From NCBI GenBank assembly GCA_014379595.1, contig JACMLM010000063.1:1-53884 (forward strand): a DNA stretch of 53,884 bases, given 5' to 3'. Each line of letters begins with the position of its first letter. Position 1 is the stretch's first letter. A program made the position numbers and the translations under genes. The notes below the pieces were generated by a model. The model had not been told where the DNA came from and did no database searches. It saw nothing but the letters and a program-made list of their open reading frames with translations. The stretch is from Anaerolineales bacterium. GTDB taxonomy: Bacteria > Chloroflexota > Anaerolineae > Anaerolineales > Villigracilaceae. Below are positions 35,261-53,872 of this stretch, in pieces.

Positions 35261-35315
35261 CTTAATTTATCTTTAACACACCTGAAACACATGGTTAACC
35301 CTGCACTCTTATACT
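35261..35315 (+). promoter_or_regulatory. Pho-box-like array plus -10, promoter of the miniprotein
   Basis: CTTAATT, CTTTAAC, CTGAAAC and GGTTAAC follow at 10-11 base spacing (35261-35299). Ten bases later lies TATACT (35310-35315), with no -35 box. This is the geometry of activator-dependent Pho promoters, where the array replaces the -35. The 35357 gene starts about 42 bases downstream. Confidence 0.5.
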
Positions 35316-35356
35316 CTCATTATCAATGAACTTGAAAGCATGAGGAAGCAGTGCGT

Positions 35357-35464: not shown

Positions 35465-35500
35465 AGTGTAGTTCTTTTCGGTTTTTCTCCTCCTTCGCAA

Positions 35501-35527
35501 GCCCGCCTTTCAAGGCGGGCGATTTTG
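35501..35527 (+). terminator. Terminator after the miniprotein
   Basis: GCCCGCCTTT / CAAGGCGGGC, strong GC stem, followed by GATTTTG. It is the only strong stop before the metallophosphoesterase promoter. Confidence 0.75.
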
Positions 35528-35539
35528 TTAACAAAACCA

Positions 35540-35567
35540 TTGAAAAACATTCTTCGGGGGGTATAAT
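35540..35567 (+). promoter_or_regulatory. Promoter of the metallophosphoesterase gene
   Basis: TTGAAA, 16-base spacer, TATAAT. The transcript would begin near 35574 with a 50-base leader holding the AAGGA site. Confidence 0.65.
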
Positions 35568-35624
35568 TAATTTAATAGAAGTTGCACGGCCCCAGATAGT
35601 CAAATTCAGCCGAAGGATTTGCAT

Positions 35625-36566: not shown

Positions 36567-36625
36567 ACAGGTTATCCCGCATTCCATAATCAAGAGTGCG
36601 TAAAAATTATTAAGAGGAGAATGTT

Positions 36626-38266: not shown

Positions 38267-38279
38267 AATCTATAAATTA

Positions 38280-38314
38280 AGTGACAGTCACCTTTAAGGT
38301 GACTGTCACTTTTT
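38280..38314. repeat. Hairpin with GTGACAGTCAC core (copy 2), may act as terminator
   Basis: AGTGACAGTCACCTT / AAGGTGACTGTCACT, then TTTTTG. Same core as 8436-8512. Its T-run makes it a workable terminator for the permease gene. Confidence 0.75.
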
Positions 38315-38329
38315 GATTTGAGAGTAACT

Positions 38330-39229
38330 ATGTCTGTAATTGAACAAGTCGTAGCACAGATCGATGATTGGAAAGGAAAAGAAATATCCATTCATCATTT
38401 ATCAGGCGGGTTGACCAACACTAATTTTAAAGTGGAAGTGGATGGCACCTCTTATTTTGTGCGCGTACCCGGTGAAGGCACGGAACTACTGGCGATAGAT
38501 CGTAACAATGAATATCACAGCGCCAGAGCCGCTGGGCAGGCGGGGGTTGGACCGAAAGTTTTATATCATTTACCAGAATATAGTGTGATGGTTTTGGAAT
38601 TTTTGCAGGGGACTACGATGTCTAAGGAATCATTGAACGCAGCAGGCATGCCAAATCGGATGGCCGACTCGATCAAGAGACTCCACGCTGGCGAACGCTT
38701 CTTACTGGACTTCAACATGTTCCGCCTGACGGAGTATTATCTCAGCCTATGCAAAGAACGAAATATACTCATCCCTAATGGGTATTTGGAAAGAATGAAA
38801 ATAGTTAATGAGATTGAGAAAGCCATGACGCTCCATCCAATAGAAACTGTCCCATGCAATAATGATTTGCTTGCAGAAAATTATATTGACGATGGTAAAC
38901 AGCTATGGCTGATCGATTATGAATACAGCGGCAACAACGACCCGACCTTTGAACTTGGGAATACCTGTCAGGAAATGCAATTTAATGATGAGCAAATCAA
39001 AGAAGTATGCAGCACATATTTCGGAGAAGCCACTCCAGCACTAATTGCCCGTATGAAATTAAACATGATCATGTCTGATGTGGGCTGGGGGTTATGGGCT
39101 GCCATTCAGGCAAGCATCTCTACAATTGATTTTGATTTCTGGGGCTGGGCTATCGAACGCTGGGGAAGAGCCGTTGAAAAAATGGACTCAGCTGAATTTT
39201 CTTTGTGGATGGAAGAAGTCGCAAAGTAG
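38330..39229 (+). CDS. Choline/ethanolamine kinase-like phosphotransferase (LicA type)
   Basis: Phosphotransferase with the protein-kinase-like fold, 299 residues. Landmarks: nucleotide loop GGLTNTNFKV, the Lys/Arg strand YFVRVPGE, the catalytic loop CNNDLLAEN, and the metal loop LIDYEYSGNNDP (DYEY as in LicA and choline kinases). In the catalytic loop the usual H-x-D is N-x-D, while Asp and the later Asn are kept. The substrate is likely an amino alcohol. I start at ATG 38330, six bases after GAGAG. It follows an APC permease gene, but the GTGACAGTCAC hairpin lies between. Confidence 0.8.
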   Translation: MSVIEQVVAQIDDWKGKEISIHHLSGGLTNTNFKVEVDGTSYFVRVPGEGTELLAIDRNNEYHSARAAGQAGVGPKVLYHLPEYSVMVLEFLQGTTMSKESLNAAGMPNRMADSIKRLHAGERFLLDFNMFRLTEYYLSLCKERNILIPNGYLERMKIVNEIEKAMTLHPIETVPCNNDLLAENYIDDGKQLWLIDYEYSGNNDPTFELGNTCQEMQFNDEQIKEVCSTYFGEATPALIARMKLNMIMSDVGWGLWAAIQASISTIDFDFWGWAIERWGRAVEKMDSAEFSLWMEEVAK

Positions 39230-39302
39230 ACATGTAACATACATCCATGTTTACCTGTCTGGTTATTTACGTTTATACTTCCCCTTGAAGGAATTGAATC
39301 AC

Positions 39303-40043
39303 TTGGATCTTGTAAAAGAAATGTACCGCCTCGTCGAAGCGGCAGAAGTGAAAAAAATTCAATTGCGAGCTGTAGGCGGGCTCGCTGTTCAGGTTCACAA
39401 TAAAAAGAATCATCCTCTTTTTATTCGCGAATTTGGCGATCTTGACTTTGCCGTTGCTGGAAAACAACGCCGCGAGCTTGAAGCCTTTATGCCTGAGGTG
39501 GGATATTCTCCGCATAAGCAATTCAATGTTTTAAATGGAGACCAACGACAAATTTACTATCACGACGAAACAAATATGAAAATTGACATCTTCGTCGGTG
39601 ATTTTGAAATGTGCCATAAGATTCCACTTGAAACCCGCCTCACAGCAGAACCTGTGACTATTCCGCTGGCTGAGTTACTTCTTTCAAAAGTTCAGATTTT
39701 CGAGTTGAATCATAAAGATGTAATGGATATTGCGTCTTTATTATTAAATGTCAACACTGGCAGGGATGATAAGGAAACCATCAACCTTCAGATATTGGCT
39801 CAGTTATGCAGTCAGGATTGGGGATTGTATAAAACCACTTCGATAAATCTTAATAAAGTAGATGAAACTATTAAGAAGGAAGAAATGCCTCTCTCACCTG
39901 GAGAAAAGGAATTAATTTCTAGTCGTATTCACGAAATCATAAAAACATTTGACGAGATGCCCAAGCCTTTGGCGTGGCAGTTACGTGATCGGATTGGAAC
40001 GCGCGTCAAGTGGTACATTGAAGTAGAGGAAGTACGCAGGTAA
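39303..40043 (+). CDS. Nucleotidyltransferase-fold protein
   Basis: Protein of about 246 residues with a Pol-beta-type nucleotidyltransferase core: LRAVGGLAVQVH gives the GG turn, DLDFAV the Asp pair, and MKIDIFVGD the third acidic strand. This arrangement is shared by AbiEii-type toxins and many uncharacterised transferases; function is unknown. The start is uncertain: TTG 39303 lies ten bases after GAAGGA, while the first ATG (39321) has no site. A longer frame from 39078 overlaps the kinase gene and is unlikely. It may be co-transcribed with the kinase (73-base gap). Confidence 0.68.
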   Translation: MDLVKEMYRLVEAAEVKKIQLRAVGGLAVQVHNKKNHPLFIREFGDLDFAVAGKQRRELEAFMPEVGYSPHKQFNVLNGDQRQIYYHDETNMKIDIFVGDFEMCHKIPLETRLTAEPVTIPLAELLLSKVQIFELNHKDVMDIASLLLNVNTGRDDKETINLQILAQLCSQDWGLYKTTSINLNKVDETIKKEEMPLSPGEKELISSRIHEIIKTFDEMPKPLAWQLRDRIGTRVKWYIEVEEVRR

Positions 40044-40050
40044 GTGTTGG

Positions 40051-40188
40051 ATGAATAAAAAGGTCAGACTTTTTCTCGCCATCATCATTCTCAGCGTTTC
40101 GATTTCATTATTAATATGGGGCTATATGCCTAATAAGCATGAGACAAGAGTCCAGCCGATTGCGCCGGCAGAAATGCAGCTTCCATAA
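40051..40188 (+). CDS. Small single-pass membrane protein
   Basis: 45-codon frame: MNKKVRLFLAIIILSVSISLLIWGYM, a basic start followed by one hydrophobic helix, then a polar tail (NKHETRVQPIAPAEMQLP). It begins eight bases after the nucleotidyltransferase stop and ends 26 bases before the next lipoprotein gene. The helix and tail resemble an uncleaved signal anchor. I recognise no family. Its even spacing between two genes on the same strand supports it. Confidence 0.55.
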   Translation: MNKKVRLFLAIIILSVSISLLIWGYMPNKHETRVQPIAPAEMQLP

Positions 40189-40214
40189 ATATAATCTGAA
40201 AATTTATTGAATAC

Positions 40215-40967
40215 ATGAATACTACTTCTTTGTGCCGTCATATTTTTTTGTTTCTATTTATTTTCTTATTAAGCCTGATCTCCTTTGCTTGTGGAGCTGC
40301 TGCCGGCACGCCTCCTCCATCTGACTCAGAGGCTTTGCCCACGCTGTCTATATCGCTCACGGAGTCTATAGCTCCTCCATTAATCCAGCCGACTCAAATT
40401 TCTGTATCACCAGCCATTCCTGAAACTCGCCGCCTGACATTGGAATTCCCAGCAAAAATGCGGGCAGGTGTTGAAGCGGATATTATTATCCTTACACTCG
40501 AAGTGGATGATCTAGGTAATATCACGCCAACCGCACAAATTGATGGGAATGTTGTCGTCGGTGAAACAGTTGAAATCCCTGATCTATATGAAACACATAA
40601 TGTCACAGCTGAGGCACGGCTTGACCTGGCGGGCATGATCATTCAGCCCGCTCAAGCAGTCTTTGAGCCTCTCAAGCGTGGACAATCTGTCAAATTTTAT
40701 TGGAGCATTCGTCCGCAGGAGACTGGTTTATATCGCGGTACAGTCTGGCTGCATTTGAACTTTAGTGACAAGCTTTCGGGAGAACAGAGTCGAATTGCTA
40801 TATCAGCTCAAATCATAGAAATAGAAGCGGTGGATTTCTTCGGGCTGTCTGTCAATGTGGCACGTACGTCTGGGGTGATTGGGTCAGTTGTGGGAGGGGT
40901 CATCGGTTTTCCATTTTTGGAGAATATTATTAAATTTGTATTCAAGAAGAGAAAACAAAAAATTTAA
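40215..40967 (+). CDS. Lipoprotein with C-terminal membrane helix, unknown function
   Basis: Protein of 250 residues. An N-terminal signal peptide ends in a lipobox (ISFAC), then a Pro/Ser linker, then an immunoglobulin-like beta domain (about 70-200: ETRRLTLEFPAKMRAG, GQSVKFYWSIRPQETG). A C-terminal hydrophobic, Gly-rich helix (GVIGSVVGGVIGFPFL) and basic tail (KKRKQKI) close it, so it may be tethered at both ends. No family is recognised. TATAAT lies 19 bases before the ATG without a ribosome site. The gene is the last before the nuo cluster. Confidence 0.7.
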   Translation: MNTTSLCRHIFLFLFIFLLSLISFACGAAAGTPPPSDSEALPTLSISLTESIAPPLIQPTQISVSPAIPETRRLTLEFPAKMRAGVEADIIILTLEVDDLGNITPTAQIDGNVVVGETVEIPDLYETHNVTAEARLDLAGMIIQPAQAVFEPLKRGQSVKFYWSIRPQETGLYRGTVWLHLNFSDKLSGEQSRIAISAQIIEIEAVDFFGLSVNVARTSGVIGSVVGGVIGFPFLENIIKFVFKKRKQKI

Positions 40968-40991
40968 TCGCTTTCTTCTGTATGGTACAAT
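40963..40991 (+). promoter_or_regulatory. Candidate nuoA promoter
   Basis: TTTAAT, 17-base spacer, TACAAT, about 36 bases before ATG 41028. The -35 is weak. Confidence 0.4.
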
Positions 40992-41027
40992 TTTGAAAAT
41001 TATAAGAATTCATGACGGAGTATTTAA

Positions 41028-41381
41028 ATGAACGAGTGGCTTTACATTGGTTTATTTTTTATCGTCGGGTTGATCATTCCTTTTGGCGCAATTGCTGTTG
41101 CATGGATTTTGGGACCCAAAAAACCCAATCCCATTAAACAATCAACATATGAATGCGGTATCGAGCCAGTAGGCGATGGCTGGGTGCAATTCAAAGCCCA
41201 GTACTATATTTTTGCACTCGTTTTTCTTGTATTTGATGTGGAAACAGTTTTTCTTTTCCCGTGGGCAGTAAAGCTTGGTCAATTGGGTTTGTTCGCAGTG
41301 ATTGAAGGTATTATCTTCATTATGATCCTTATGGTCGGCCTCGTTTATACCTGGCGCAAGGGGATGTTGGAGTGGGCTTAA
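41028..41381 (+). CDS. nuoA: NADH-quinone oxidoreductase subunit A
   Basis: Small membrane subunit of complex I at the junction of the membrane and peripheral arms. Its 117 residues form three helices. The conserved loop YECGIEP and FDVETVFLFPW (with the Asp and Glu near quinone coupling) are both present. It is the first gene of the cluster, but a terminator-like hairpin separates it from nuoH, and the genes usual in between (nuoB-G) are absent. ACGGAG precedes the start. Confidence 0.95.
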   Translation: MNEWLYIGLFFIVGLIIPFGAIAVAWILGPKKPNPIKQSTYECGIEPVGDGWVQFKAQYYIFALVFLVFDVETVFLFPWAVKLGQLGLFAVIEGIIFIMILMVGLVYTWRKGMLEWA

Positions 41382-41395
41382 TTTTATTTCGAAAT

Positions 41396-41434
41396 AGAAA
41401 AGGCTGATCGGATATTTTCCTTTCAGCCTTTTCT
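41396..41434 (+). terminator. Hairpin between nuoA and nuoH
   Basis: AGAAAAGGCTGA / TCAGCCTTTTCT, 12-base stem, 15-base loop, followed by TTGTG. It may end or attenuate the nuoA transcript before the rest of the cluster. Confidence 0.6.
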
Positions 41435-41455
41435 TTGTGTAAGCAGGAGTAACAC

Positions 41456-42673
41456 ATGAATTTTTGGAGTGATCCTCTAAAAGTAGCTGCGGATTGGTTG
41501 ACGGGCATCCTCGTTGGCTGGGGCATGAATGCGGTTGTCGCTCATATCCTGTTGGCTTTCCTCGGGATCTTGATGCTTGCCAGTATCTTAATGGTATTGG
41601 ATATTTTCCTGGTATGGCTCGAACGCAAGGTAGTGGCACGGTTTCAGGATCGGCTTGGACCTAATCGAGTAGGCCCTTTTGGATTAATTCAACCATTTGC
41701 AGATATTATCAAGTTGTTAATTAAAGAAGACACCACGCCCGATGGAGCAGACAGGGTAGTCTATAACATTGCACCTTTGCTTTCGATGATGTCGGTCTTG
41801 ATTTTGTGGGCGATAGTGCCGTTGGCTCCCGTACTGCTCGGCGTGGACTTGAATAGCGGCGCTTTGTTCCTGATTGCAGCAGGTGCGATTGGTACGCTTT
41901 CAATTATTATGGCAGGTTGGGCGTCTAATAACAAGTTTTCGGTCATCGGTGCTTTTCGTCAGGTGGCGGTGATGGTCTCGTTTGAAATTCCCATGCTGGC
42001 TGTTTTACTAATCCCAACCATCTTTGCAGGTTCGATGGGCATGAACACAATTATTCAAAAGCAGGATATTTGGTATTTTCTTTTGTCACCTCTAGGCGCA
42101 TTGATCTTTCTCATTGCAGCCATTGCGGAATTGGGGCGTGCGCCGTTTGACCTTGCGGAAGGCGAATCGGAATTGGTGGCTGGATACAACACAGAATATT
42201 CAGGTATGAAGTTCGGCATGTTCTATGCGGGCGAATTGCTTCATGCTTTTACTTTCGGCGGTTTCTGGGCGATTTTATTTTTTGGCGGTTATCGTTTTTT
42301 TGGCCTGGAAAAAGTCAGTCCCTTCCTTTCTATAGCAATTATTTTATTCAAGGCTCTGATCGGATATTGGATCATCATGTGGATCAAATACACGATGATG
42401 CGTATTCGTATTGATCAGATGCTCGCCTTCAATTGGAAATTTCTGACGCCTATCGCCTTCGTCCTTGTGATGGTGACCGCTTTAATGAATGCGCTTCTGC
42501 GCGACGCTTCAAGCTGGCTCTACATCACAGGCATGATCTTATCGAACATCATTCTCGGATGGGTGTCTTTGGAGATTGCCCGTTTGGTAAGTAAAAAGGA
42601 ACGCGAAAGAGTGGAAGGTCTGAAACAGCCTGCCCTGAGCAAAGCCGAAGGGGTTGTGGAGGCCCATCACTAA
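41456..42673 (+). CDS. nuoH: NADH-quinone oxidoreductase subunit H
   Basis: Complex I subunit that forms much of the quinone chamber; 405 residues and about eight helices. Key parts: ERKVVARFQDRLGPNRVGP, the FADIIKLLIKED loop, and AELGRAPFDLAEGESELVAGY, the acidic loop that couples quinone to proton movement. The C-terminus carries an unusual tail, QPALSKAEGVVEAHH, encoded by a copy of a short dispersed repeat. GGAG lies before the ATG. It is the first gene of the continuous H-J-K-L-M-M-N run. Confidence 0.95.
   Translation: MNFWSDPLKVAADWLTGILVGWGMNAVVAHILLAFLGILMLASILMVLDIFLVWLERKVVARFQDRLGPNRVGPFGLIQPFADIIKLLIKEDTTPDGADRVVYNIAPLLSMMSVLILWAIVPLAPVLLGVDLNSGALFLIAAGAIGTLSIIMAGWASNNKFSVIGAFRQVAVMVSFEIPMLAVLLIPTIFAGSMGMNTIIQKQDIWYFLLSPLGALIFLIAAIAELGRAPFDLAEGESELVAGYNTEYSGMKFGMFYAGELLHAFTFGGFWAILFFGGYRFFGLEKVSPFLSIAIILFKALIGYWIIMWIKYTMMRIRIDQMLAFNWKFLTPIAFVLVMVTALMNALLRDASSWLYITGMILSNIILGWVSLEIARLVSKKERERVEGLKQPALSKAEGVVEAHH
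42629..42653. repeat. Short repeat unit inside the 3' end of nuoH
   Basis: CCTGCCCTGAGC-AAAGCCGAAGGGG, in frame as PALSKAEG near the NuoH C-terminus. I recall similar CTGAGC-AAGCCGAAGGG units dispersed in Chloroflexota genomes; only one copy is in this window. Confidence 0.45.
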
Positions 42674-42690
42674 TAAAGATGGAGTAACTT

Positions 42691-43200
42691 ATGACTGGTG
42701 AAAAAATTATTTTTCTTATTATTGCAGGTGTGACACTTTTCTCTGGTTTCATGGTTGTGACTTCAAGTAACCTTGTCCACGCGGCCTTGTGGTTGGTGGC
42801 AGCACTTTTTGGTGTGGCTATGGTATTTGCCTTGTTGAATGCAGGCTTTATAGCTGTGGTTCAAGTGGTTGTGTATATCGGTGCGATTGCAATTCTCTTT
42901 ATCTTCGCTATTATGTTAACGCGCAGAGAACAACTTGATCATGGTGTGCAAGTCAATAAGAATTGGTGGGTGGGAGCACTTGTGGCTGTAGCTTCCTTTG
43001 CAGGACTTGTCTTTTTACTTCAGAGTTTTAACGGCTTTTCGAAAACAGCATTAGCTATCCCGTCTGGGTTTGATGCGGTGAATCAATTAGGCGATGCGCT
43101 CACCTCGCCTGCGGGATATGTCCTGCCGTTTGAAGTTGCATCAGTCTTATTACTTGCAGCATTGGTTGGCGCGGTGTATCTCGCTTTCAATAAAAAATAG
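42691..43200 (+). CDS. nuoJ: NADH-quinone oxidoreductase subunit J
   Basis: Complex I membrane subunit, 169 residues, five helices. The pi-bulge helix III region VQVVVYIGAIAILFIFAIML is recognisable and typical. It lies 17 bases after nuoH with GGAGTAAC before the ATG. The usual nuoI gene between H and J is missing here. Confidence 0.94.
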   Translation: MTGEKIIFLIIAGVTLFSGFMVVTSSNLVHAALWLVAALFGVAMVFALLNAGFIAVVQVVVYIGAIAILFIFAIMLTRREQLDHGVQVNKNWWVGALVAVASFAGLVFLLQSFNGFSKTALAIPSGFDAVNQLGDALTSPAGYVLPFEVASVLLLAALVGAVYLAFNKK

Positions 43201-43208
43201 GAGCGTTG

Positions 43209-43517
43209 ATGATTCCTCTTTCATGGTATCTCATTCTTGCAGCGGCATTATTCAGTATTGGTTTATATGGCGTGTTGGCGCGCAGAAATGCAGTTGCAAT
43301 TTTGCTTGGCGTTGAATTGATGCTCAATGCAGTAAATATAAATCTTGTGGCTTTCTGGCGTTATGGTGACGTTGCTCAAATGGCAGGGCAGGTCTTTGCG
43401 ATCATTGTATTTGCAGTAGCCGCCGCGGAAGTGGCCGTGGGTCTGGCTTTGGTGATATCTGTCTACCGCCGACGTAATACGGTCATTGCTGAAGAACTTG
43501 ATATCTTAAAGTGGTAG
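43209..43517 (+). CDS. nuoK: NADH-quinone oxidoreductase subunit K
   Basis: Small complex I antiporter-like subunit, 102 residues, three helices. Its two proton-carrying glutamates are in GVELMLNAVNINLVAF (Glu36) and AAAEVAVGLAL (Glu74). I use ATG 43209, five bases after AGGAG; a TTG one codon upstream is less likely. It follows nuoJ by eight bases and leads directly into nuoL. Confidence 0.95.
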   Translation: MIPLSWYLILAAALFSIGLYGVLARRNAVAILLGVELMLNAVNINLVAFWRYGDVAQMAGQVFAIIVFAVAAAEVAVGLALVISVYRRRNTVIAEELDILKW

Positions 43518-43523
43518 GAATTT

Positions 43524-45671
43524 ATGGTGACTGAAACATTGATTTGGTTAATTCCACTTCCGCCTGTGCTGGCTTTCTTTTTGATCGTATTGTTTACGAA
43601 TAAAAATAAAGTATTGAGTCACAGTGTGGCAATTAGCGCGGCATTCCTTTCATGGCTGGGAAGCATGATCGTGTTTGTGCGTGCGCTTGGCGTGGAACAT
43701 TTTGGTGAACATCCTTTTGAATCTGCGATTAACTGGCTTCCAACTGGCGATACATGGTTGAAGATCGGCGTATTGATCGACCCGCTTTCTGCAGTTGTTT
43801 TATTTTTTGTGGCATTCACAGTATTGATGATCTTCATTTATAGCGTTGGTTATCACAATTTCGGTCAACCCGCAGGTGACCACGATCATTCTGGCTTGCC
43901 TCCTCATGGCGCAACAGTAACAGATGACCTTGGTCACAAACACACTGTGCTTTCCATTGAACCAATGTATTCGCGCTTCTTTGCATTTATTAGCTTATTT
44001 GCATTCGGCATGTACACGCTCGTTGTTTCTGATAACCTGCTCACGCTCTTCGTTGGTTGGGAAATCATGGGTTTATGTTCTTATTTGTTGATCGGCTTTT
44101 GGTATGGAAAAGAATCTGCAAAAAATGCTGCTGTCAAAGCCTTTATGACCACACGCATTGGTGATGTGTTCATGCTGCTTGGCATAGCTTTTCTTTATAG
44201 TGTAACTGGCACGCTTTCCTATCGCGAAATTTTCACTGAAGAAATTTTACATACGCTTGCCATTATTCCATCAGGAGTGCTTGGATTATCCGCTGCTGGC
44301 TTGATCGCTTTATTACTCTTCATCGGAACGATTGGTAAATCGGCGCAATTCCCGTTACATGTCTGGCTGCCCGATGCAATGGAAGGCCCTACACCTGTCA
44401 GCGCTATGATTCATGCGGCGACGATGGTATCCGCGGGTGTGTATGCAGTCATTCGTATGTTTCCGCTCCTCAGCCTTGACCCGAAAACGATGACCATCGT
44501 TGCATTCATCGGTGCTTTCACTGCCATCTTCGCCGCGACCATCGCTGTTGCACAAAATGACATTAAGCGTGTGTTGGCTTATTCCACCATTTCACAGCTT
44601 GGATTTATGATCGCTGCGCTTGGTATCGGTGCTTATGTTGCCGCGGTCTTTCATTTAGTAACACATGCCTTCTTCAAAGCCTTGCTCTTCCTCGGCTCTG
44701 GTTCCGTCATTCATGGCATGGAACATGGAGTGCTTCACACGGGCAATCACAAAGTTGACCCGCAGGATATGTTCAATATGGGCGGCCTGCGCAAGAAGAT
44801 GCCAATTACATTCTGGACTTTCCTAATCGGCGGCTTTGCCCTTTCAGGCTTCCCAATTATTACGGCTGGTTTTTGGTCAAAAGATGAAATTCTCGCAGAT
44901 GCATTTGGACATGGTCATTGGGCAGTCTTCATTACACTTGCAGTCGCGGCATTCCTGACTGCGTTCTATACAATGAGACAAATTACTTTAACCTTTTTGG
45001 GCGAAGCTCGCACAGAAGAGGCAGAACACGCGCATGAGACTCCCTTGACGATGACTCTGCCGCTGATTATCCTTTCGGTCTTTGCTGTGACATATGGCTG
45101 GGTCGGCATCCCCGAACATTTCCCAATCCTCGGCGGACTCATGCCAAACTGGTTTCATGAATTTGTTGGCGGTACTTTGGCTGAGCATCCAGAAGCTGTA
45201 GAGTTCAATATCGTCCCTCTCTTAACTTCATTAGGTGTTGCACTTGGCGGATTATTCTTCGGCTGGCTTGCATATCGCAATGTAAATTCTGTTGAACAGG
45301 ATAAACTGCAAATTCCTTTACTTAAGAATAAATATTATTTCGACGAAATTTATGACTTCGTCTTCATCAAACCTCTAACATGGTTCTCTGAAGTCTTCGT
45401 CTCCAAATGGATGGACAAGGGTTTCATTGACGGCATTCTGCACATCTTTGGCCCCGCCACACAAGGCTTGGGAGCAATTGTCCGTAATTATTTTGATATA
45501 CCCGTGATCAATAAATTCTTTGGCGACGGCTCCTCCGATGTCACCTGGTGGGCTGGAAAAAATCTTCGTCCCATTCAAACGGGCCGTATCCAACAGTATC
45601 TTCTTCTTTCAATAGTTGTTATCTTTTTCGTTGGCGGCTTGATTTATTATTTCCTGCTGAGGAGTGTCTAA
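43524..45671 (+). CDS. nuoL: NADH-quinone oxidoreductase subunit L
   Basis: Largest antiporter-like proton-pumping subunit, 715 residues. Pump residues are present: Glu180 in LFVGWEIMG (TM5) and Lys272 in GTIGKSAQFPLHVWLPDAMEGPTPVSA (TM7), and the long C-terminal amphipathic helix with a final anchor. Oddity: an insertion of about 32 residues (113-147) after the YSVGY segment is rich in His and Asp (GDHDHSGLPPHG, LGHKH), which the standard subunit lacks. Its stop shares a base with the nuoM start (TAATG). Confidence 0.95.
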   Translation: MVTETLIWLIPLPPVLAFFLIVLFTNKNKVLSHSVAISAAFLSWLGSMIVFVRALGVEHFGEHPFESAINWLPTGDTWLKIGVLIDPLSAVVLFFVAFTVLMIFIYSVGYHNFGQPAGDHDHSGLPPHGATVTDDLGHKHTVLSIEPMYSRFFAFISLFAFGMYTLVVSDNLLTLFVGWEIMGLCSYLLIGFWYGKESAKNAAVKAFMTTRIGDVFMLLGIAFLYSVTGTLSYREIFTEEILHTLAIIPSGVLGLSAAGLIALLLFIGTIGKSAQFPLHVWLPDAMEGPTPVSAMIHAATMVSAGVYAVIRMFPLLSLDPKTMTIVAFIGAFTAIFAATIAVAQNDIKRVLAYSTISQLGFMIAALGIGAYVAAVFHLVTHAFFKALLFLGSGSVIHGMEHGVLHTGNHKVDPQDMFNMGGLRKKMPITFWTFLIGGFALSGFPIITAGFWSKDEILADAFGHGHWAVFITLAVAAFLTAFYTMRQITLTFLGEARTEEAEHAHETPLTMTLPLIILSVFAVTYGWVGIPEHFPILGGLMPNWFHEFVGGTLAEHPEAVEFNIVPLLTSLGVALGGLFFGWLAYRNVNSVEQDKLQIPLLKNKYYFDEIYDFVFIKPLTWFSEVFVSKWMDKGFIDGILHIFGPATQGLGAIVRNYFDIPVINKFFGDGSSDVTWWAGKNLRPIQTGRIQQYLLLSIVVIFFVGGLIYYFLLRSV

Positions 45672-47194
45672 TGGATTTCATTAACACTCATCTCCTCAGT
45701 CTTATCTTATTTGTCCCAACCATCGCAGCGTTGTTCATGCTCTTTCTGCCAGGTGGCGAGACGAAATTATTGCGTTGGTTCGCACTCAGCGCCAGCCTGA
45801 TTCCATTTGTGCTCACACTTATATTGTGGAACAACTTTGATTCAAATGCGACAGGTTTTCAATTTCAGGAAAATTACATCTGGTACGAAGCAATAAATTC
45901 ATCACTGCATTTAGGCGTGGACGGCATCTCGCTCTCAATGGTTTTGCTCACAACTCTTCTCACACCGCTTGCCATCCTTGCATCGTTCAGCGTGACTGAT
46001 CGCGTCAAACCATATATGATGCTTTTTCTCTTTTTGGAAACAGGCATGCTCGGTGTCTTCATGGCGCTTGACCTCTTGATCTTTTTTGTCTTTTGGGAAA
46101 TTGGTCTTGTGCCGATGTACTTCCTCATCAATCAATGGGGAAGTGCCAATAAGGAATATGCTTCGCTCAAGTTCATGCTCTACACCATGGGCGGATCACT
46201 TGGACTTTTACTCGCTGTACAAATGCTCGGCGTGCTTTTTGGGACCTATGATCTGGTTGCCCTCTATGGGCTTTGGAATTCGCTGGATCCTGGTTCTGAT
46301 CTACTGGGTATGCCTGTGCATACCGTCAAGACGATAGCCTTTTGGGCATTCACAATTGCTTTCGCCATCAAAGTCCCGATCTGGCCTTTCCATACATGGT
46401 TACCCGATGCGCACACTGAAGCTCCAACAGCAGGCTCAATGATTTTGGCTGGTGTTCTATTGAAACTTGGTGCATATGGTTTCTTGCGGCTCGTCCTTCC
46501 TTTATATCCAGTGGAAGCGAAAATATTTGCAGGCGCATTGGCATTGCTTGCAACCGCCGCGATTGTCTTTGGCGCATTTGGCTCATACGGCCAAACGGAT
46601 TTCAAGCGCCTGGTCGCATATTCGTCAGTTAATCACATGGGATTTGTAGTACTCGGTATCGCTGCAGCAGGCCTGGCCGCCGGCACGACCGATGCTCACA
46701 TCGCCATGAATGGTGCAGTGTTGCAAATGTTCAATCATGGATTATCCGCCGCAGGTATGTTCTTCCTCGTCGGTGTGATTTATGAAAGAACTCATACACG
46801 TGACCTAAATCAATATGGCGGATTATTTCCGCTTGTGCCTGTCTATGGCGGAATATTAATCTTCACATCCATGGCTTCGCTCGGCTTGCCTGGGCTCAAT
46901 GGCTTCGTCTCTGAATTTTTAGTGGTGCGAGGTTCGTATCCAGTATTGACCATTTACACTGCCATTTCCATGCTTGGTTTGCTTTTTACTGGTGCTTATA
47001 TTTTGAAAGGTTTAATGAAAGTTTTGCATGGTCCCATGAACGAACATTGGGCACACGGTGAGCATAAGTTAACTGAGATCAACACGCGTGAAATTTTCGT
47101 CATGCTGCCGCTCATGATTTTGATTTTAGCTATCGGTCTTTGGCCTGCATGGATTTTGGAAGTTATCAACAAAACAGTAGTAGCACTCTTCTAA
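45671..47194 (+). CDS. nuoM: NADH-quinone oxidoreductase subunit M (first copy)
   Basis: Antiporter-like proton-pumping subunit, 507 residues and 14 helices. Pump residues match the E. coli positions: Glu143 in FFVFWEIGLVPMY and Lys234 in FAIKVPIWPFHTWLPDAHTEAPT, with the TM12 Glu in GFVSEF. The start is ATG 45671, overlapping the nuoL stop by one base, with GGAG inside the end of nuoL. A longer frame beginning at 45548 lies within nuoL and is not used. Confidence 0.95.
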   Translation: MDFINTHLLSLILFVPTIAALFMLFLPGGETKLLRWFALSASLIPFVLTLILWNNFDSNATGFQFQENYIWYEAINSSLHLGVDGISLSMVLLTTLLTPLAILASFSVTDRVKPYMMLFLFLETGMLGVFMALDLLIFFVFWEIGLVPMYFLINQWGSANKEYASLKFMLYTMGGSLGLLLAVQMLGVLFGTYDLVALYGLWNSLDPGSDLLGMPVHTVKTIAFWAFTIAFAIKVPIWPFHTWLPDAHTEAPTAGSMILAGVLLKLGAYGFLRLVLPLYPVEAKIFAGALALLATAAIVFGAFGSYGQTDFKRLVAYSSVNHMGFVVLGIAAAGLAAGTTDAHIAMNGAVLQMFNHGLSAAGMFFLVGVIYERTHTRDLNQYGGLFPLVPVYGGILIFTSMASLGLPGLNGFVSEFLVVRGSYPVLTIYTAISMLGLLFTGAYILKGLMKVLHGPMNEHWAHGEHKLTEINTREIFVMLPLMILILAIGLWPAWILEVINKTVVALF

Positions 47195-47200
47195 GAGGCG

Positions 47201-48718
47201 ATGATGAATTTTCCGATACTAAGTATTATTACAAACCTTCCGATCGTTGCAGCTGTCATTATGTTGATGATCCCTGCCAATCGGAAGAATGAGGTTCGTG
47301 GTGTCGCCCTTGCCGCTGCGATCATTGATCTCCTGCTTTCTGCATGGATGTATTTGCAATACTTGATTCAAGATATGACGGGCTATCAATTCATTGAACA
47401 ATATAATTGGCTTCCACAACTTGGCATTACCTTTTATTTTGGCGTGGATGGGATGAGTGCTCCACTAGTGTTACTGACAGGAATTGTGATGTTTACAGGT
47501 GTTTTAATCGCATGGGGTGATGACGATAAACATGTGATGGCAGGTATCCAGGATCGTCCGCGTGAGTTTCTCGCTTTTCTTTTTATTCTTGCATGGGGGG
47601 TATTCGGCGTGTTCGTTTCACTTGATTTGTTCATGTTGTTCTTCTTCTATGAAATTGCAGTGTTCCCGATGTACTTATTGATCGCTATTTGGGGTTGGGC
47701 AAAGACTCGTGAATATGCCGCGATGAAATTGACATTGTATTTGTTTATTGGTTCTGTCATTGCTTTGGTAGGTGTGCTCGCCATGTATTGGGTTTCGTAC
47801 CAAAACACAGGTGTCTTAACTTTCGACATGCTTCACATGGAAACAGCTAATTTCTCTGCTTCTTTTCAATATATATGGTTCCTGCCTGTCTTCCTCGGCT
47901 TTGCGGTATTGGGCGGTATCTGGCCATTCCATAACTGGTCACCGGACGGGCACGTTGCAGCACCAACATCTGTTTCCATGTTCCATGCAGGTGTGTTGAT
48001 GAAACTGGGTGCATTCGCTGCGTTACGTGTGGGCATTATGCTTTTGCCAGAAGGCGCAAAGCAGTGGTCATGGTTAATTATGGCGATTGCAGCCATAGCA
48101 GTTGTTTATGGCGCTTATATTGCTTTTGTTCAAACTGACTTGAAATATATGATCGGCTTCTCGTCAGTTTCACACATGGGATTAGTGATATTGGGCATAT
48201 CCACACTTAACCATAACGGTCTAGTGGGGGCGGGTGTGCAGATGTTCTCTCATGGTGTGATGACTGCGCTCTTCTTTGCTGTGACAGGTATGATCTACGA
48301 CAGAGCGCACACACGTCAAATGTCTGAGCTTGGTGGTATGGCAAAAGTGATGCCGTTCGCAGCTGTGGGTTTTATTATCGGTGGACTCGTTTCAATGGGA
48401 ATGCCTGGTTTCTCTGGCTTCGTTGCAGAGTTTCCCATCTTCATGGGTGTCTGGCGCGTACAATGGCTAGTGGCGGTGATTTCAAGTATCTCAATTGTTA
48501 TTACAGCAGCTTACATTCTCCTCGCAGTTCGCCGTGTCTTCTTCAACCCCATGCCTGAAAAACTTGAAGGCCATATCACAGATGTTACTGTCATGGATAA
48601 AATAGCAATTTTCACTTTATGTTTTTTCATGGTGCTCATTGGTATCTTCCCGTCTTTCATGGTTCCCATGATGGAAAAGGGTGTTGAAAATATTCTGCGC
48701 CTTTTGGGAGGTGCATAA
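47201..48718 (+). CDS. nuoM2: NADH-quinone oxidoreductase subunit M (second copy, TM7 lysine missing)
   Basis: Second NuoM, 505 residues, clearly divergent from the first. The TM5 Glu151 (FFYEIAVFPMYL), the TM8 Lys268 (LMKLGAF) and the TM12 Glu (GFVAEF) are kept. The TM7 stretch reads GFAVLGGIWPFHNWSPDGH, so the central Lys (position 237 here) is a Leu. The start is ATG 47201 or ATG 47204; GAGG favours the second. Extra NuoM copies are known from complex I forms with longer pump chains. It lies seven bases after the first nuoM. Confidence 0.93.
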   Translation: MMNFPILSIITNLPIVAAVIMLMIPANRKNEVRGVALAAAIIDLLLSAWMYLQYLIQDMTGYQFIEQYNWLPQLGITFYFGVDGMSAPLVLLTGIVMFTGVLIAWGDDDKHVMAGIQDRPREFLAFLFILAWGVFGVFVSLDLFMLFFFYEIAVFPMYLLIAIWGWAKTREYAAMKLTLYLFIGSVIALVGVLAMYWVSYQNTGVLTFDMLHMETANFSASFQYIWFLPVFLGFAVLGGIWPFHNWSPDGHVAAPTSVSMFHAGVLMKLGAFAALRVGIMLLPEGAKQWSWLIMAIAAIAVVYGAYIAFVQTDLKYMIGFSSVSHMGLVILGISTLNHNGLVGAGVQMFSHGVMTALFFAVTGMIYDRAHTRQMSELGGMAKVMPFAAVGFIIGGLVSMGMPGFSGFVAEFPIFMGVWRVQWLVAVISSISIVITAAYILLAVRRVFFNPMPEKLEGHITDVTVMDKIAIFTLCFFMVLIGIFPSFMVPMMEKGVENILRLLGGA

Positions 48719-50167
48719 GTGTTTACTTCTGTAATGTTCGCTTCTATCCTCCCTGAAATTTTAATCACAATACTCGGCATGATTTTGCTGATCGTTGAGC
48801 CGTTCTGGAAGGAAGATCAACGCCGCAATTCAGGTTGGCTCACCGCGGGTGGACTCTTTGTCATCATTATTATTAGTCTATTGTTTGGTCAGCCCGGTGA
48901 ACCTGTTGCTGTGCTGGGCGGTATGATCCGCTTTGATTGGCTGGGATTCTTCTTCAAGCTTCTCTTCATGTTTGCGGCGGCTGCAACGGCTCTTTTATTG
49001 ATGGATCATGAGAAGGCGGGACATCGCGGCGAGGCATATCTTCTACTTTTAGCATCGCTTCTAGGCATGAACCTGATGGCTGTTTCGGCCGACTTGATCA
49101 TGCTCTATCTTTCAATCGAGACCGCATCGATTCCACTTTACATCCTCGCAGGCTTTTTACTCGCTGACGATCGTTCCACTGAAGCAGGTTTCAAGTATTT
49201 GCTTTTTGGCACAGTTACTTCAACCATTATGCTTTATGGTTTTAGTTTAGTCTTTGGCTTGGCTGGCACGACCAATATCTATCAACTCTCCCAAATGTTT
49301 GCTGATGGAGAAGTTTCAGTTTTACTTGTGTTCAGTCTGGTGGCGCTTATTCTCGTAGGGCTTGGCTTCAAAGTTGCCATCGTCCCATTTCATTTCTGGG
49401 TACCTGATGTATATGAAGGCTCGCCGACTCCTGTAGCTGGTTTCCTTTCCACGGCTTCCAAGGCTGCAGGTTTTGCTGTTATCGTCCGCTTTTTCTTTGT
49501 AGCATTTCCTGCCTTTGCCTCCTCTTGGACGTTCATCCTTGCAGCCCTCGCAGCAGTCACAATGACCGTAGGTAATCTGCTTGCACTTCCACAAACGAAT
49601 ATCAAGCGCCTGCTTGCATATTCATCTGTTGCACATGCAGGTTATGCTTTGATCGGTGTAGTGGCTTTTAGTCAATTAGGTGCTGCGAGCGTAGTCTTTT
49701 ATCTCGCGGCATATATTCTGACGAATTTACTTGCCTTCGGTATTGTGATGGCATTTAGCCAGGCCACTGGGCTTGAAGATCTCAAAGATTATGCAGGCAT
49801 GAGTCGACGTAATCCGTTGCTGGCATTGATGATGTTATCTGCATTTCTATCGCTGACAGGTATGCCGCCGTTCGGTGGTTTCGTGGCGAAGGTATTTGTA
49901 TTTGCCGCAGGTATTCAGGCAAATTACACATGGCTTGTGGTTGTGGGTATTCTCAACTCGGTAGTGGGTGTGTATTACTACCTTAACGCCATGAAGTATG
50001 TGTATCTGTATCGCATGCCGAATGAAGATGAGGAGAATCACCAGATCATATTGACCCGTCCATATGCAATTGCTTTGGTTGTGCTAACGATTGGCGTTAT
50101 TTTGGTGGGGACGGTGTTTGCTCCGTGGTTTAGTTGGTCAGATGCCGCAGCGATGAATCTTTTTTAG
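48719..50167 (+). CDS. nuoN: NADH-quinone oxidoreductase subunit N
   Basis: Antiporter-like proton-pumping subunit, 482 residues and 14 helices. Key residues: TM5 Glu in YLSIETASIPLYIL, TM7 Lys in GFKVAIVPFHFWVPDVYEGSPTP, and the TM8 Lys in STASKAAGFAVIVR. The start is GTG 48719, immediately after the second nuoM stop and six bases after GGAGGT. It ends the cluster; the ATPase operon follows after a 184-base gap with its own promoters. Confidence 0.95.
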   Translation: MFTSVMFASILPEILITILGMILLIVEPFWKEDQRRNSGWLTAGGLFVIIIISLLFGQPGEPVAVLGGMIRFDWLGFFFKLLFMFAAAATALLLMDHEKAGHRGEAYLLLLASLLGMNLMAVSADLIMLYLSIETASIPLYILAGFLLADDRSTEAGFKYLLFGTVTSTIMLYGFSLVFGLAGTTNIYQLSQMFADGEVSVLLVFSLVALILVGLGFKVAIVPFHFWVPDVYEGSPTPVAGFLSTASKAAGFAVIVRFFFVAFPAFASSWTFILAALAAVTMTVGNLLALPQTNIKRLLAYSSVAHAGYALIGVVAFSQLGAASVVFYLAAYILTNLLAFGIVMAFSQATGLEDLKDYAGMSRRNPLLALMMLSAFLSLTGMPPFGGFVAKVFVFAAGIQANYTWLVVVGILNSVVGVYYYLNAMKYVYLYRMPNEDEENHQIILTRPYAIALVVLTIGVILVGTVFAPWFSWSDAAAMNLF

Positions 50168-50351: not shown

Positions 50352-50660
50352 ATGAACGAAAAGAATATTCAGCAGGTTCTTGAAATTGAAAAGCAAGCCC
50401 AGGAAATGCAGGAAAAAGCCAAACGCGATGCACAGGAAATTCCTGTAAAGGCCGAGCAGGAAGCACAGGCTTTGATCGCGAAGGCAAAGGCAGATGCGCA
50501 GGAAGAGGCGCGTAAGTTAGTTGCAGATGCGCAGTCAGTTGATTCATCTGGCGCTGAGGCTGATATTGCATCAAAGAACAGTGAATTCGAAACACAGGCG
50601 AAAAAGAACTTCGATAAGGCTGTTGCTTTTGTTTTGGAACGCGTGATCGGCAGGGCATAA
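50352..50660 (+). CDS. V/A-type ATPase stalk subunit (H/G-like)
   Basis: Protein of 102 residues, nearly all a charged coiled coil (EIEKQAQEMQEKAKRDAQ, LIAKAKADAQEEARKLV) with a short C-terminal helix (NFDKAVAFVLERVIG). This matches the AhaH/subunit G peripheral stalk of archaeal-type ATPases, which pairs with subunit E. The sequence alone does not separate H from other coiled coils, but position at the head of an ATPase operon does. GAGGTGA precedes the ATG. The C gene follows after three bases. Confidence 0.8.
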   Translation: MNEKNIQQVLEIEKQAQEMQEKAKRDAQEIPVKAEQEAQALIAKAKADAQEEARKLVADAQSVDSSGAEADIASKNSEFETQAKKNFDKAVAFVLERVIGRA

Positions 50661-50663
50661 CTC

Positions 50664-51749
50664 ATGGCGAGTGGTGTTTCGGGCTACGCGGCAATTAGCA
50701 CACGGGTGCGGGCAATGTATTCAGACTTGCTCACCCCGCAGGATATGACTCGTTTAAGCGACTCTCCTGATTTTCCTTCGTTGGTGAGTGCGCTTAAAAG
50801 TACTCCTTACGGAAAATATCTTTCGGGTCTCAAAGATAATGAATTGACACCACGCCGTGTCATTCTTGCTATTAAGAACAGACTGGCGGATTCTTTTTCA
50901 AGTGTGGTTCAACAAGCGCCAGAGCAGACTCGTCCACTGGTGAAGCAGTTATATCGTTATTTTGAAATTGGAAATCTTAAGGCTGTATTACGCAGTATTC
51001 AAACCGTTTCTTCATGGAATCCTGATGTCCCGACTTGGGATCGTGTACGCGACATCCTTTTCCCTTTTGGTTCGTTTACATCCATCCCTGCACAAGCGAT
51101 GGTTGAATCTGGCAGTGTCAGCTCGGCAGTGGATCTATTGAAAGGCACGCCATACGAATCAACCATGTCTTTCGCAATGAAGCGTTTTTCTGCGGAGCAG
51201 AATCTTTTCCCATTGGAAGTGGCTTTAGATCTTGATTATTGGCGTCGTTTGTGGGCAGAAGCCAAGAAGCTTTCAGGAAAAGACCGTGAAATGGGCGTAA
51301 AGATCATCGGTTCTTTGCTTGATATGAATAATTTGATGTGGGTCATTCGTTATAAGATCTATCACAAACTATCTGAAGAAGAATTAATTAATTACACATT
51401 GCCTTTTGGTTATCGTGTTCGTGATGAAGATGTGCGCGCAATCGCAGCTGGTTCTGATATTGCGACAGTGGTCTCACGCATTTACCCAGGCATTGCGGAT
51501 GTAAGTTCGTATCTTGAAAATCCTCATTCTGGTCTGCCAAAACTGGAGCATGAGCTTAAGCGACAGGTGGTTAAAACCTGTGTTGCTGCGTTTATCGGTG
51601 ACCCATTCCACATTGGAATTCCGCTCGCATATTTATTATTGAGCGATTTTGAAGTACAGGATTTAATTGTTTTGATCGAAGCAAAGTCTTCCAACATAGT
51701 AGATGAGGATTATCGTCCGTTGTTGTTGAAGACTAATATGATTCAGTAA
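50664..51749 (+). CDS. atpC: V/A-type ATPase subunit C (d-type central stalk cap)
   Basis: Soluble socket subunit of 361 residues that joins the central rotor shaft to the membrane ring. It has the family's helical-repeat layout: an opening YAAISTRVRAMYSDLL, FPSLVSALKSTPYGKYL, then three similar helical blocks (NLKAVLR, NLMWVIRYKIYHKL and KTCVAAFIGDPFHIG). It starts three bases after the stalk gene. A palindromic repeat lies between it and subunit I. Confidence 0.88.
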   Translation: MASGVSGYAAISTRVRAMYSDLLTPQDMTRLSDSPDFPSLVSALKSTPYGKYLSGLKDNELTPRRVILAIKNRLADSFSSVVQQAPEQTRPLVKQLYRYFEIGNLKAVLRSIQTVSSWNPDVPTWDRVRDILFPFGSFTSIPAQAMVESGSVSSAVDLLKGTPYESTMSFAMKRFSAEQNLFPLEVALDLDYWRRLWAEAKKLSGKDREMGVKIIGSLLDMNNLMWVIRYKIYHKLSEEELINYTLPFGYRVRDEDVRAIAAGSDIATVVSRIYPGIADVSSYLENPHSGLPKLEHELKRQVVKTCVAAFIGDPFHIGIPLAYLLLSDFEVQDLIVLIEAKSSNIVDEDYRPLLLKTNMIQ

Positions 51750-51761
51750 GTATCATCACTG

Positions 51762-51855
51762 CGTCATTGCGAGGAGGGCTTTAGCCCGACGAAGCAATCC
51801 CCAAGATTATCATGGAGATTGCTTCAGGCGAAAAAGCATCGCCTTCGCAATGACG
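51762..51855. repeat. Dispersed palindromic element, family A, copy 2
   Basis: Ends CGTCATTGCGA and TCGCAATGACG are inverted. Inside are GAAGCAATCC and GGAGATTGCTTC. Same layout as 11111-11197. It sits inside the ATPase operon, between subunits C and I, where a hairpin would form in the mRNA. Confidence 0.8.
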
Positions 51856-51877
51856 GATAAAAATACATGGAGATTTT

Positions 51878-53872
51878 ATGTTCTTTCCGAGAGAGATGAC
51901 CGAAGTTGAATTGATTGTCCCTTCCAAGGACCTTGTGGCTGTTGCAAAAGTAATAAGCGGCCATGGTGTGTTTCATCAAGTGGATAGCACCTATTTAGGC
52001 TTGGAAAGTTTGGGACCCAGCGCGTGGCAGGAGAAAGCAGGAAATTACTCTGCGCTTGAACGCCGCATCCAAACCATTATGCAGAATTTAGCTTTGGCAG
52101 AGGAATATCCTCTTAAAGCCGCTGCTGATTCAATCGTGGAATTGGAAGTTGTGCGCCCTAATGTGGATCGAATTGATGAAGAAGTAAAGGGAACAAGCGA
52201 CCAGCTTTCTAATGAAAAGAAGCGGCTTGAATTGCTTGAGAGTCAACTTCGTCAGTTGGAACCCATTGCAGATATCAATGTGGAAGTTGGCGCATTAAAG
52301 AATTCATCATATATGCACTCTATTTTGGGTGTGCTTCCCACAGCAAACATCAGCAGATTACAAACCAGCATTGGCCGCGTGCCGCATGTTTTCTTTACAT
52401 TACGTGAAGATTCTCAAAAACCTGTAGTTTGGATCTTAGGACCAAAAAGTAATTCAGATATTTTAGATCGCGCTGCAAAGAGTGCATATCTTACGCCTCT
52501 GAGCCTGCCAGATGAATTCAGCGGCACTCCTGAGCAAATTACTGGCGTGCTCAAGAAAGAAATTGAAACTGCCAAGAAGAAAATTTCTGAACTTGAATCA
52601 AACTTGAGCAAGCTGGCTGGCAAGCATAAAACCGAACTTCAAAAACTGCTCTGGGACGTCCATATCAGCCGTGTTATGGCTGATGCCATTGTCCGCTTTG
52701 GACAGCTCCGCCACACATATGTAGTAGTGGGTTGGGTACCAACAGCGAATTTGGAAAACTTAACAACCAGGCTTAAGCAAGCTTCGAAAGAAGTTTTGAT
52801 CGAAGCCATGCCAACCAGCCGCACGGGTCATCATTCCAACGTGCCTGTTGCATTGACGAATAACAAATGGCTGCGACCTATTCAGGAGTTGGTTACCACT
52901 TTCGGACGCCCAAGCTATGGTGAACTCGACCCCACTCTCCTGATTGCATTTAGCTTTCCGATTCTTTACGGTGCGATGTTTGGTGACATTGGTCAAGGAC
53001 TCGTTTTGATGTTGGCTGGCTTCCTAGCGCATAACAGAATAGCTTTGAAGGGTCTGCAAAGCCTCGGTTTGCTTCTCGTCTATGCTGGTTTCTTTGCAAC
53101 TGTTTTTGGATTTCTCTATGGAAGTATTTTCGGCTTTGAAGGTCATTTGGTCGAGGAATATCTTCATTTCCACCTTGAACCATTGTGGATGAGTCCACTC
53201 GAAAACATCTTGGCTATACTCAGTTTTGCGATTGATGCGGGTATTATCATCTTGATTTTTGCATTCTTGCTTGGATTGTTCAATAACGTCCGTTCACGAG
53301 ATTGGGCACATTTCTGGTTTGGTCATACGGGTGTTGTGGCGCTTTGTTTCTACTTCTGCTTCCTTACTGTCATTGATGGACTTCTTGGAACTACACCTAT
53401 TGCTCCTCAAGTCGCCGCTGCAATTGCTCGAATTCCTCTTCCATTCAACATTTTGACACCAGTTTTTGCACTTGGCTTGATGTTCAACAGCTTATTCCGC
53501 AACATCGTTGAAGGGCATCGACCTTTGCTTGATGGTGGTTTTGGTATGTTTGTTATTACATCCATCATGGATCTTGTTGAAGGCGCAATCAGCATGCTTT
53601 CCAATACACTTTCGTTCGTCCGTGTAGGTGCGTTTGCAGTCGCACATGGTGGTCTCAGCCTTGCCATCTTCTCATTGGCTGGTGAAGAGCCTGACTTAGG
53701 TTTTTGGATCACGATCATCATCGGTAATATTTTCATTATCGGGTTTGAAGGTCTGATTGTTTATATTCAGACGATGCGTTTGCACTACTATGAGATTTTA
53801 GGTAAATTCTTCCACGGCGGAGGTATGCGCTTTGAGCCGTTGAAGTTGAACCCCTCTCAAGAGGAGGCGTAA
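51878..53872 (+). CDS. atpI: V/A-type ATPase subunit I (a-type membrane stator)
   Basis: Stator subunit that offers protons or sodium ions to the c-ring; 664 residues. The N-terminal half is cytoplasmic with long coiled coils (VKGTSDQLSNEKKRLELLE, and residues about 225-260). The C-terminal half has about eight helices. The essential arginine is Arg582 in LSFVRVGAFAVAHG. The gene is complete, with GGAG before the ATG; the remaining operon (K, E, F, A, B, D) would lie beyond the window edge. Sodium versus proton use depends on the c-ring, which is not seen. Confidence 0.92.
   Translation: MFFPREMTEVELIVPSKDLVAVAKVISGHGVFHQVDSTYLGLESLGPSAWQEKAGNYSALERRIQTIMQNLALAEEYPLKAAADSIVELEVVRPNVDRIDEEVKGTSDQLSNEKKRLELLESQLRQLEPIADINVEVGALKNSSYMHSILGVLPTANISRLQTSIGRVPHVFFTLREDSQKPVVWILGPKSNSDILDRAAKSAYLTPLSLPDEFSGTPEQITGVLKKEIETAKKKISELESNLSKLAGKHKTELQKLLWDVHISRVMADAIVRFGQLRHTYVVVGWVPTANLENLTTRLKQASKEVLIEAMPTSRTGHHSNVPVALTNNKWLRPIQELVTTFGRPSYGELDPTLLIAFSFPILYGAMFGDIGQGLVLMLAGFLAHNRIALKGLQSLGLLLVYAGFFATVFGFLYGSIFGFEGHLVEEYLHFHLEPLWMSPLENILAILSFAIDAGIIILIFAFLLGLFNNVRSRDWAHFWFGHTGVVALCFYFCFLTVIDGLLGTTPIAPQVAAAIARIPLPFNILTPVFALGLMFNSLFRNIVEGHRPLLDGGFGMFVITSIMDLVEGAISMLSNTLSFVRVGAFAVAHGGLSLAIFSLAGEEPDLGFWITIIIGNIFIIGFEGLIVYIQTMRLHYYEILGKFFHGGGMRFEPLKLNPSQEEA

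Follow-up and report, generated by a model that had tools for sequence, protein, structure and literature searches.

The closest described relatives of the operon examined here are the 2M complexes I of Chloroflexota, in which the genes run nuoL-M1-M2-N, the lateral helix of NuoL is lengthened, nuoB, nuoCD and nuoI lie apart, and nuoC and nuoD are fused (PMC7117926, PMC8004040, PMC9040806). The added NuoM of such complexes has been credited with the translocation of an extra proton (PMC7117926, PMC8004040, PMC9040806). A related form, the complex I of Bacteroides fragilis, has 11 subunits and no nuoEFG (PMC7002350). In that organism nuo is weakly expressed, and its deletion left NADH:quinone activity and mouse colonisation unchanged (PMC7002350).

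The mechanism by which complex I translocates protons is under dispute. The leading schemes employ the NuoM Glu-Lys pair in every cycle (PMC10212512, PMC11496545, PMC9271201); the electrostatic-wave scheme and the domino scheme alike use it as the switch each time (PMC9271201, PMC10212512). In Paracoccus denitrificans NuoM, substitution of the TM7 Lys (K232Q), of the gate Leu (L242A) or of the TM8 Lys (K263Q) yielded purified complex I that was unable to catalyse NADH:ubiquinone oxidoreduction (PMC9802314). In isolated Nqo13, replacement of the same gate Leu (L214A) increased proton conduction (PMC13220270), and the Nqo13 ion pair lies ~14 Å off the main proton path (PMC11496545). His254 of NuoL joins the Lys-Glu pair, the uptake path and the release path (PMC13358369).

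Genomic context of nuoM2

The window, a 53,884-nucleotide stretch of contig JACMLM010000063.1 from an Anaerolineales bacterium (GCA_014379595.1), carries nuoA, nuoH, nuoJ, nuoK, nuoL, two nuoM genes and nuoN at 41028-50167, all on the forward strand. The first four genes (41028-43517) are followed in the same operon by nuoL (43524-45671); by nuoM1 (45671-47194, start assumed), which encodes an ordinary NuoM with the TM7 Lys; by nuoM2 (47201-48718), which encodes a second NuoM of 505 residues that lacks this Lys; and by nuoN (48719-50167), whose key residues are intact. NuoL has a lengthened lateral helix, with an insertion stretch of 34 residues (45435-45536) in place of the six or fewer found in one-NuoM loci in the same alignment. 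The remaining genes detected, nuoB, a fused nuoCD of 579 codons and a nuoI-like gene, are located on a separate contig of the same genome (C24:5575-8636).

By gene content, this operon encodes a 2M (four-unit) complex I: the second nuoM stands between nuoM1 and nuoN (45671-50167), nuoBCDI is set apart with nuoCD fused, and the lateral helix is of the lengthened kind. The first-pass annotation had assumed a complex I with an extra NuoM, and both the gene order and the NuoL insertion agree with it. All of the features named above for the published Chloroflexota 2M complexes are shared by the complex of this genome; it differs from their description in that the added NuoM, the subunit credited with the extra proton, here has neither the TM7 Lys nor the gate Leu.

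Contig C46 of this genome carries another complex I operon (~29300-44000) with NuoD and NuoF matches, a single NuoM that retains the TM7 Lys, and one ORF that reads like a putative NuoG. Directly after nuoN in the window are V/A-type ATPase genes (H-, C- and I-like; 50352-53872); C/I-like genes were found in 15 of 80 named loci (54 of the 80 extend at least 3.5 kb past nuoN) and in two of the 120 G loci.

Conserved and altered residues in NuoM2

NuoM2 is a NuoM by both profile and fold. It scored 451.4 bits against TIGR01972 (cut-off 263.8) and 214.5 against PF00361 (cut-off 21.5); none of the NCBIfam NuoM equivalogs reached its cut-off for NuoM2, nor for NuoM1. AlphaFold2, supplied with 93 aligned proteins, returned a confident NuoM fold (pLDDT 96.6) that is nearest to solved NuoM chains, the best being 8e9g_M (VIA Z 56.3, rmsd 1.5, 493 aligned residues).

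In TM7, NuoM1 reads AFAIKVPIWPFH and NuoM2 reads GFAVLGGIWPFH. Leu237 of NuoM2 (codon TTG, 47909-47911) aligns on the TM7 Lys of NuoM1 and of E. coli NuoM, and alignments with the solved NuoM chains of Paracoccus, Thermosynechococcus and E. coli match Glu151 (47651-47653) with the TM5 Glu, Lys268 (codon AAA, 48002-48004) with the TM8 Lys and Glu410 (48428-48430) with the TM12 Glu. The observation with which the first-pass annotation began, that the Lys had become Leu and the other three residues remained, is thus borne out by the alignments and by the codon itself. The TM10 His (His325 in SVSHMG, 48173-48175) and the TM11 His (His351 in MFSHGV, 48251-48253) are kept as well. The standard ion pair of TM5 Glu and TM7 Lys is therefore absent from NuoM2, Glu151 being present and its TM7 partner site occupied by Leu237.

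Two further changes, neither of them noted earlier, accompany the loss of the Lys. Ten residues past the TM7 site, at the gate-Leu position (L242 in PMC9802314, L214 in PMC13220270), NuoM2 has Ser247 (codon TCA, 47939-47941), and in TM8 it has His262 (codon CAT, 47984-47986). When the profile of the Lys-less family was aligned with NuoL (E 1.7e-45), His262 fell opposite NuoL His297, which corresponds to His254 of E. coli NuoL; His262 and His297 are each 25 positions past the TM7 site. NuoM2 thus has His at the same aligned TM8 site as NuoL and MrpA, the subunits with the TM8 histidine switch, but has neither their TM7 Lys nor their TM12 Lys (Leu237 and Glu410 instead). NuoL itself has a TM7 Lys, no Lys at the NuoM TM8 Lys site, a TM12 Lys and a lateral helix, and NuoM2 is the opposite on each count. 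With ordinary NuoM, ND4 and Nqo13, on the other hand, NuoM2 has in common the fold, the TM5 Glu, the TM8 Lys, the TM10 and TM11 His and the TM12 Glu; it departs from them in the TM7 Lys to Leu and gate Leu to Ser replacements and in the additional TM8 His.

It had been suggested that a nearby Lys might occupy the vacated site. Between K176 and K268 the sequence of NuoM2 contains no Lys or Arg. A scan of family alignment columns 140-285 singled out position 262, with His, as the sole column that combines a basic residue in almost all of the Lys-less group with none in other NuoM (88/94 vs 0/92). The residue read and the column scan together rule out a replacing Lys or Arg near the site in sequence; the conserved TM8 His may fill it.

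Distribution of Lys-less NuoM

The first-pass annotation had proposed aligning second NuoM copies across Chloroflexota and had allowed that the change might be found in this genome only. Our main set, 120 long Chloroflexota loci picked by score rather than at random, with repeated proteins removed and matches under ~328 bits in one search left out, contained 89 distinct NuoM of the NuoM2 type. None of these has the TM7 Lys, the site being Leu in 86, Thr in 2 and Met in 1; the Lys is present in all 88 of the remaining NuoM. The Lys-less state is therefore fixed in the family, and a change private to the source genome is ruled out. Fixation in the family, the alignments and the TTG codon likewise rule out an error of sequencing, assembly or alignment. 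A wider alignment held 186 NuoM: the two proteins of the window, a part of the E. coli protein, and 183 locus rows, some of which derive from one gene or from closely related ones. Of these, 94 have no Lys (Leu in 91, Thr in 2, Met in 1) and 92 have it.

The accompanying changes are nearly as constant. At the gate-Leu site, the 89 Lys-less NuoM have Ser in 84, Ala in 3 and Val in 2, versus 83 Leu and 5 Gln among the 88 others; at the 262 site they have His in 79, Leu in 5 and Ala in 5, versus 82 Leu and 6 Val. Residues corresponding to H325 and E410 are present in all 89, H351 in 82 and K268 in 80, and the TM5 Glu is replaced by Asp in six and by Gly in one. L237, S247, H262 and K268 were found together in all 80 named Anaerolineales-like loci, five of which have no NuoM1 in the stretch covered.

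Of the 89 Lys-less NuoM, 60 share their operon with a Lys-bearing NuoM and 29 are the sole NuoM seen in the operon; in all 29 of the latter, the four path residues (K268, H325, H351 and E410) are complete. A further class, represented by G264, has a close match in 55 of 119 genomes, and each of the 30 short loci of this class (~10 of whose genomes are already in the 120-locus set) has an L-M-N arrangement in which the sole NuoM carries the full signature and a complete path. Loss of the Lys had originally been linked to the protein being an extra unit, the frequent occurrence of the type as sole NuoM having been overlooked. This link is not supported, the same type being the sole NuoM in these 29 long Chloroflexota loci, in the 30 G264-class loci and in three of three Bacteroidales (see below). 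Most of the sampled bacteria with a single-type Lys-less NuoM also carry an ordinary NuoM at a second place: 28 of 30 such genomes hold at least one further NuoM-like match (E 1e-40), and the 30 best further places comprised 25 Lys-bearing and 5 Lys-less NuoM.

The NuoL lateral helix distinguishes two-NuoM from one-NuoM operons. The insertion stretch is 32-34 residues long in 32 of 32 two-NuoM loci; among 46 one-NuoM loci it is six residues in all 21 with a Lys-less NuoM and six or none in all 25 with a Lys-bearing NuoM. In a larger, partly redundant NuoL set it measured 30-34 residues in 58 and 0-12 in 85, and among named 2M loci it was 33-36 residues in 62 of 63 NuoL, the exception having four. 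In single-type operons this helix is of the ordinary form, so the Lys-less type works outside enlarged complexes. In the neighbouring subunits, the four key residues are kept in 78/78 NuoL and in 78/79 NuoN (the exception is L090, discussed later), and the NuoN TM12 Lys is kept in 79/79.

Some Lys-less copies have changed further. The TM8 Lys is gone from nine of the 60 NuoM2 copies in 2M operons, seven of which also lack the TM11 His, and these losses are limited to three branches of 2M operons. In the seven (L067, L068, L070, L073, L082, L255 and L256, five of which belong to family f16), the TM8 Lys is Ala and the TM11 His is Gly, NuoM1 is intact, and the proton path of NuoM2 looks broken from its residues; in the other two (L087 and L128), the TM8 Lys is Asn. 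Five single Lys-less NuoM (L096 and L282-L285) have Asp at the TM5 site and Ala at 262, both sites being altered together. In L090 (G396), a single Lys-less NuoM has Gly at the TM5 Glu, the TM7 and TM8 Lys of NuoN are Arg and Ser, and NuoL was not found within 6 kb before NuoM; this complex may be decaying. Another genome, G431 (given as 96% complete), has two NuoD genes, two complex I-type NuoM and no NuoF match at E 1e-20, and both of its complexes may be without the NADH module.

The signature also extends beyond Chloroflexota. Plasmid records were searched with tblastn, and 12 of the 197 matched records were examined. The full Lys-less signature was present in the NuoM, the sole one seen, of Bacteroides finegoldii, Prevotella nigrescens and Phocaeicola massiliensis (3/3 Bacteroidales examined). 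The other nine records, from Pseudomonadota and Actinomycetota, encode NuoM with Lys at the TM7 site and Leu at both the gate and the 262 site. Two annotated Bacteroidales records give the operon order A, B, CD, H, I, J, K, L, M, N; the CD gene is under one name and nuoEFG is absent, in line with the description of B. fragilis (PMC7002350). The Bacteroidales 11-subunit complex I (B. fragilis type) thus has, in the three cases examined, a NuoM with the signature of NuoM2, but differs from the 2M complex of the window in having three antiporter-like units and no lateral-helix insertion of the 2M kind.

Phylogeny of Lys-less NuoM

With the trait columns left out, a branch of support 100 separated the Lys-less NuoM, including those of Bacteroidales, from all the rest. 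A midpoint-rooted tree placed NuoM2 as the sister of the single Lys-less NuoM, with NuoM1 falling among the ordinary NuoM of Chloroflexota. An origin of NuoM1 and NuoM2 by tandem duplication was rejected, as joining the two costs 144 lnL units (p-AU 4.9e-05). The Lys-less NuoM are best read as a distinct and probably old NuoM subfamily, neither private to one genome nor a decayed copy of NuoM1. The Leu/Ser/His set has a single origin on the tree, so that the linkage of the three sites is without independent repeat.

The history of the 2M operon is less clear-cut. In the free NuoN and NuoL trees, the 2M operons fall apart from the single Lys-less operons; forcing the two together gave p-AU 0.043 for NuoN, 0.20 for NuoL and 0.25 for NuoL and NuoN combined, and with Bacteroidales added 0.28 for NuoN and 0.64 for NuoL, the joined NuoL tree being the better one. 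The 2M complex may have been assembled either (i) by grafting NuoM2 onto an ordinary complex, or (ii) by adding NuoM1 to a Lys-less complex.

Discussion

The path residues of NuoM2 are kept and its TM7 and gate sites are changed; in the light of the data on mutants (PMC9802314, PMC13220270) and on the position of the ion pair (PMC11496545), the conduction path would therefore be retained and the switch and gate altered. We propose, giving the idea about an even chance of being correct, that Lys-less NuoM constitute an old NuoM subfamily whose proton-channel gate has been rebuilt and which continues to take part in proton handling; they would not be spacers born inside enlarged complexes. In the sequences, the TM7 Lys of the Glu-Lys pair has given way to Leu and the gate Leu to Ser, a His at the NuoL histidine-switch site is added to the usual NuoM TM8 Lys, and the path from TM8 Lys through TM10 His and TM11 His to TM12 Glu is retained in most members. 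As the sole NuoM, the type occurs in many three-unit operons of further Chloroflexota classes and of the Bacteroidales examined. His262 would take over from the Lys in partnering or switching the TM5 Glu, through a putative Glu151-His262 contact; Ser247 may make the channel entrance wetter; and the Lys-less unit would share in proton transfer. Of the three fates first envisaged for the extra unit (no pumping, use of another residue, or service as a spacer), the residue comparisons thus favour the second. Several observations count against a rebuilt gate: 10 of the 89 proteins lack His262; nine of the 60 NuoM2 copies in 2M operons have lost the TM8 Lys, and seven of these the TM11 His as well, which fits a passive unit there; the TM5 site varies (6 Asp and 1 Gly of 89); the Leu/Ser/His set arose once; the B. 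fragilis nuo deletion changed neither NADH:quinone activity nor mouse colonisation (PMC7002350); and the H254A and K229A substitutions in NuoL had only a slight effect in an Mrp complementation test (PMC4938563).

Among the alternatives, we find it rather unlikely that Lys-less NuoM do not pump at all and act as a structural and electrostatic coupling element between their neighbours, with 2M complexes pumping the usual number of protons. Such a role would accord with the finding that K232Q and L242A, at the very sites lost here, abolish catalysis by Paracoccus complex I (PMC9802314), as well as with the TM8 Lys and TM11 His losses just mentioned. Those losses, however, occur only on three branches of 2M operons, and a spacer would need neither a newly buried His nor a retained TM8 Lys and TM12 Glu. 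A rebuilt gate is favoured over a dead spacer because the path is complete in all 29 sole-NuoM copies (and in the 30 G264-class loci, the genomes of which overlap with these) and because a basic residue has been gained near the one lost.

A less probable arrangement is ordinary pumping without any stand-in for the Lys, the TM5 Glu pairing with the TM12 Lys of the adjoining NuoN and His262 only aiding hydration. NuoM TM5 Glu does exchange with NuoN TM12 (PMC10212512), nuoM2 adjoins nuoN in gene order, and the NuoN TM12 Lys is invariant in our set (79/79); yet ordinary complex I has the same neighbour and still requires its TM7 Lys (PMC9802314), and His262 is conserved in 79 of 89 proteins. Least probable, and in our view very much so, is that the Lys-less unit carries another ion, e.g., Na+, as Mrp subunits do. 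The TM8 His is common to MrpA and NuoL and has been tried as a candidate for ion specificity (PMC4938563), but it is the only MrpA-type feature considered here, the proton path is kept, and the Nqo12/13 modules in isolation reportedly conduct no Na+ (PMC13220270).

Because both the electrostatic-wave and the domino scheme use the Glu-Lys switch in each cycle, complexes with a Lys-less NuoM must either work otherwise or have a passive NuoM. A bolder proposal, which we advance tentatively and with more doubt than confidence, is that Chloroflexota and Bacteroidales have in common an alternative working design for the central pump unit, in which NuoM has neither the TM7 Lys nor the gate Leu and bears a histidine switch of the NuoL type. 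Such complexes would link quinone reduction with proton transfer while dispensing with the ion-pair switch assigned to NuoM by those models. The Chloroflexota 2M complex would then contain one unit of each design.

Our limited literature search found no report of a Lys-less NuoM and no measurements on any Lys-less complex I. A natural NuoM devoid of both the Lys and the gate Leu, and often the sole NuoM of its operon, offers a ready test of the leading schemes, and the existence of relatives in Bacteroides, where nuo deletions have already been made (PMC7002350), makes such testing practical. For the Chloroflexota themselves, we infer that one of the four antiporter-like units of the 2M complex is without the standard switch; gene count therefore does not imply one extra standard pumping unit, and the extra proton inferred for two-NuoM Chloroflexota in genome papers (e.g., PMC7117926) is weakened.
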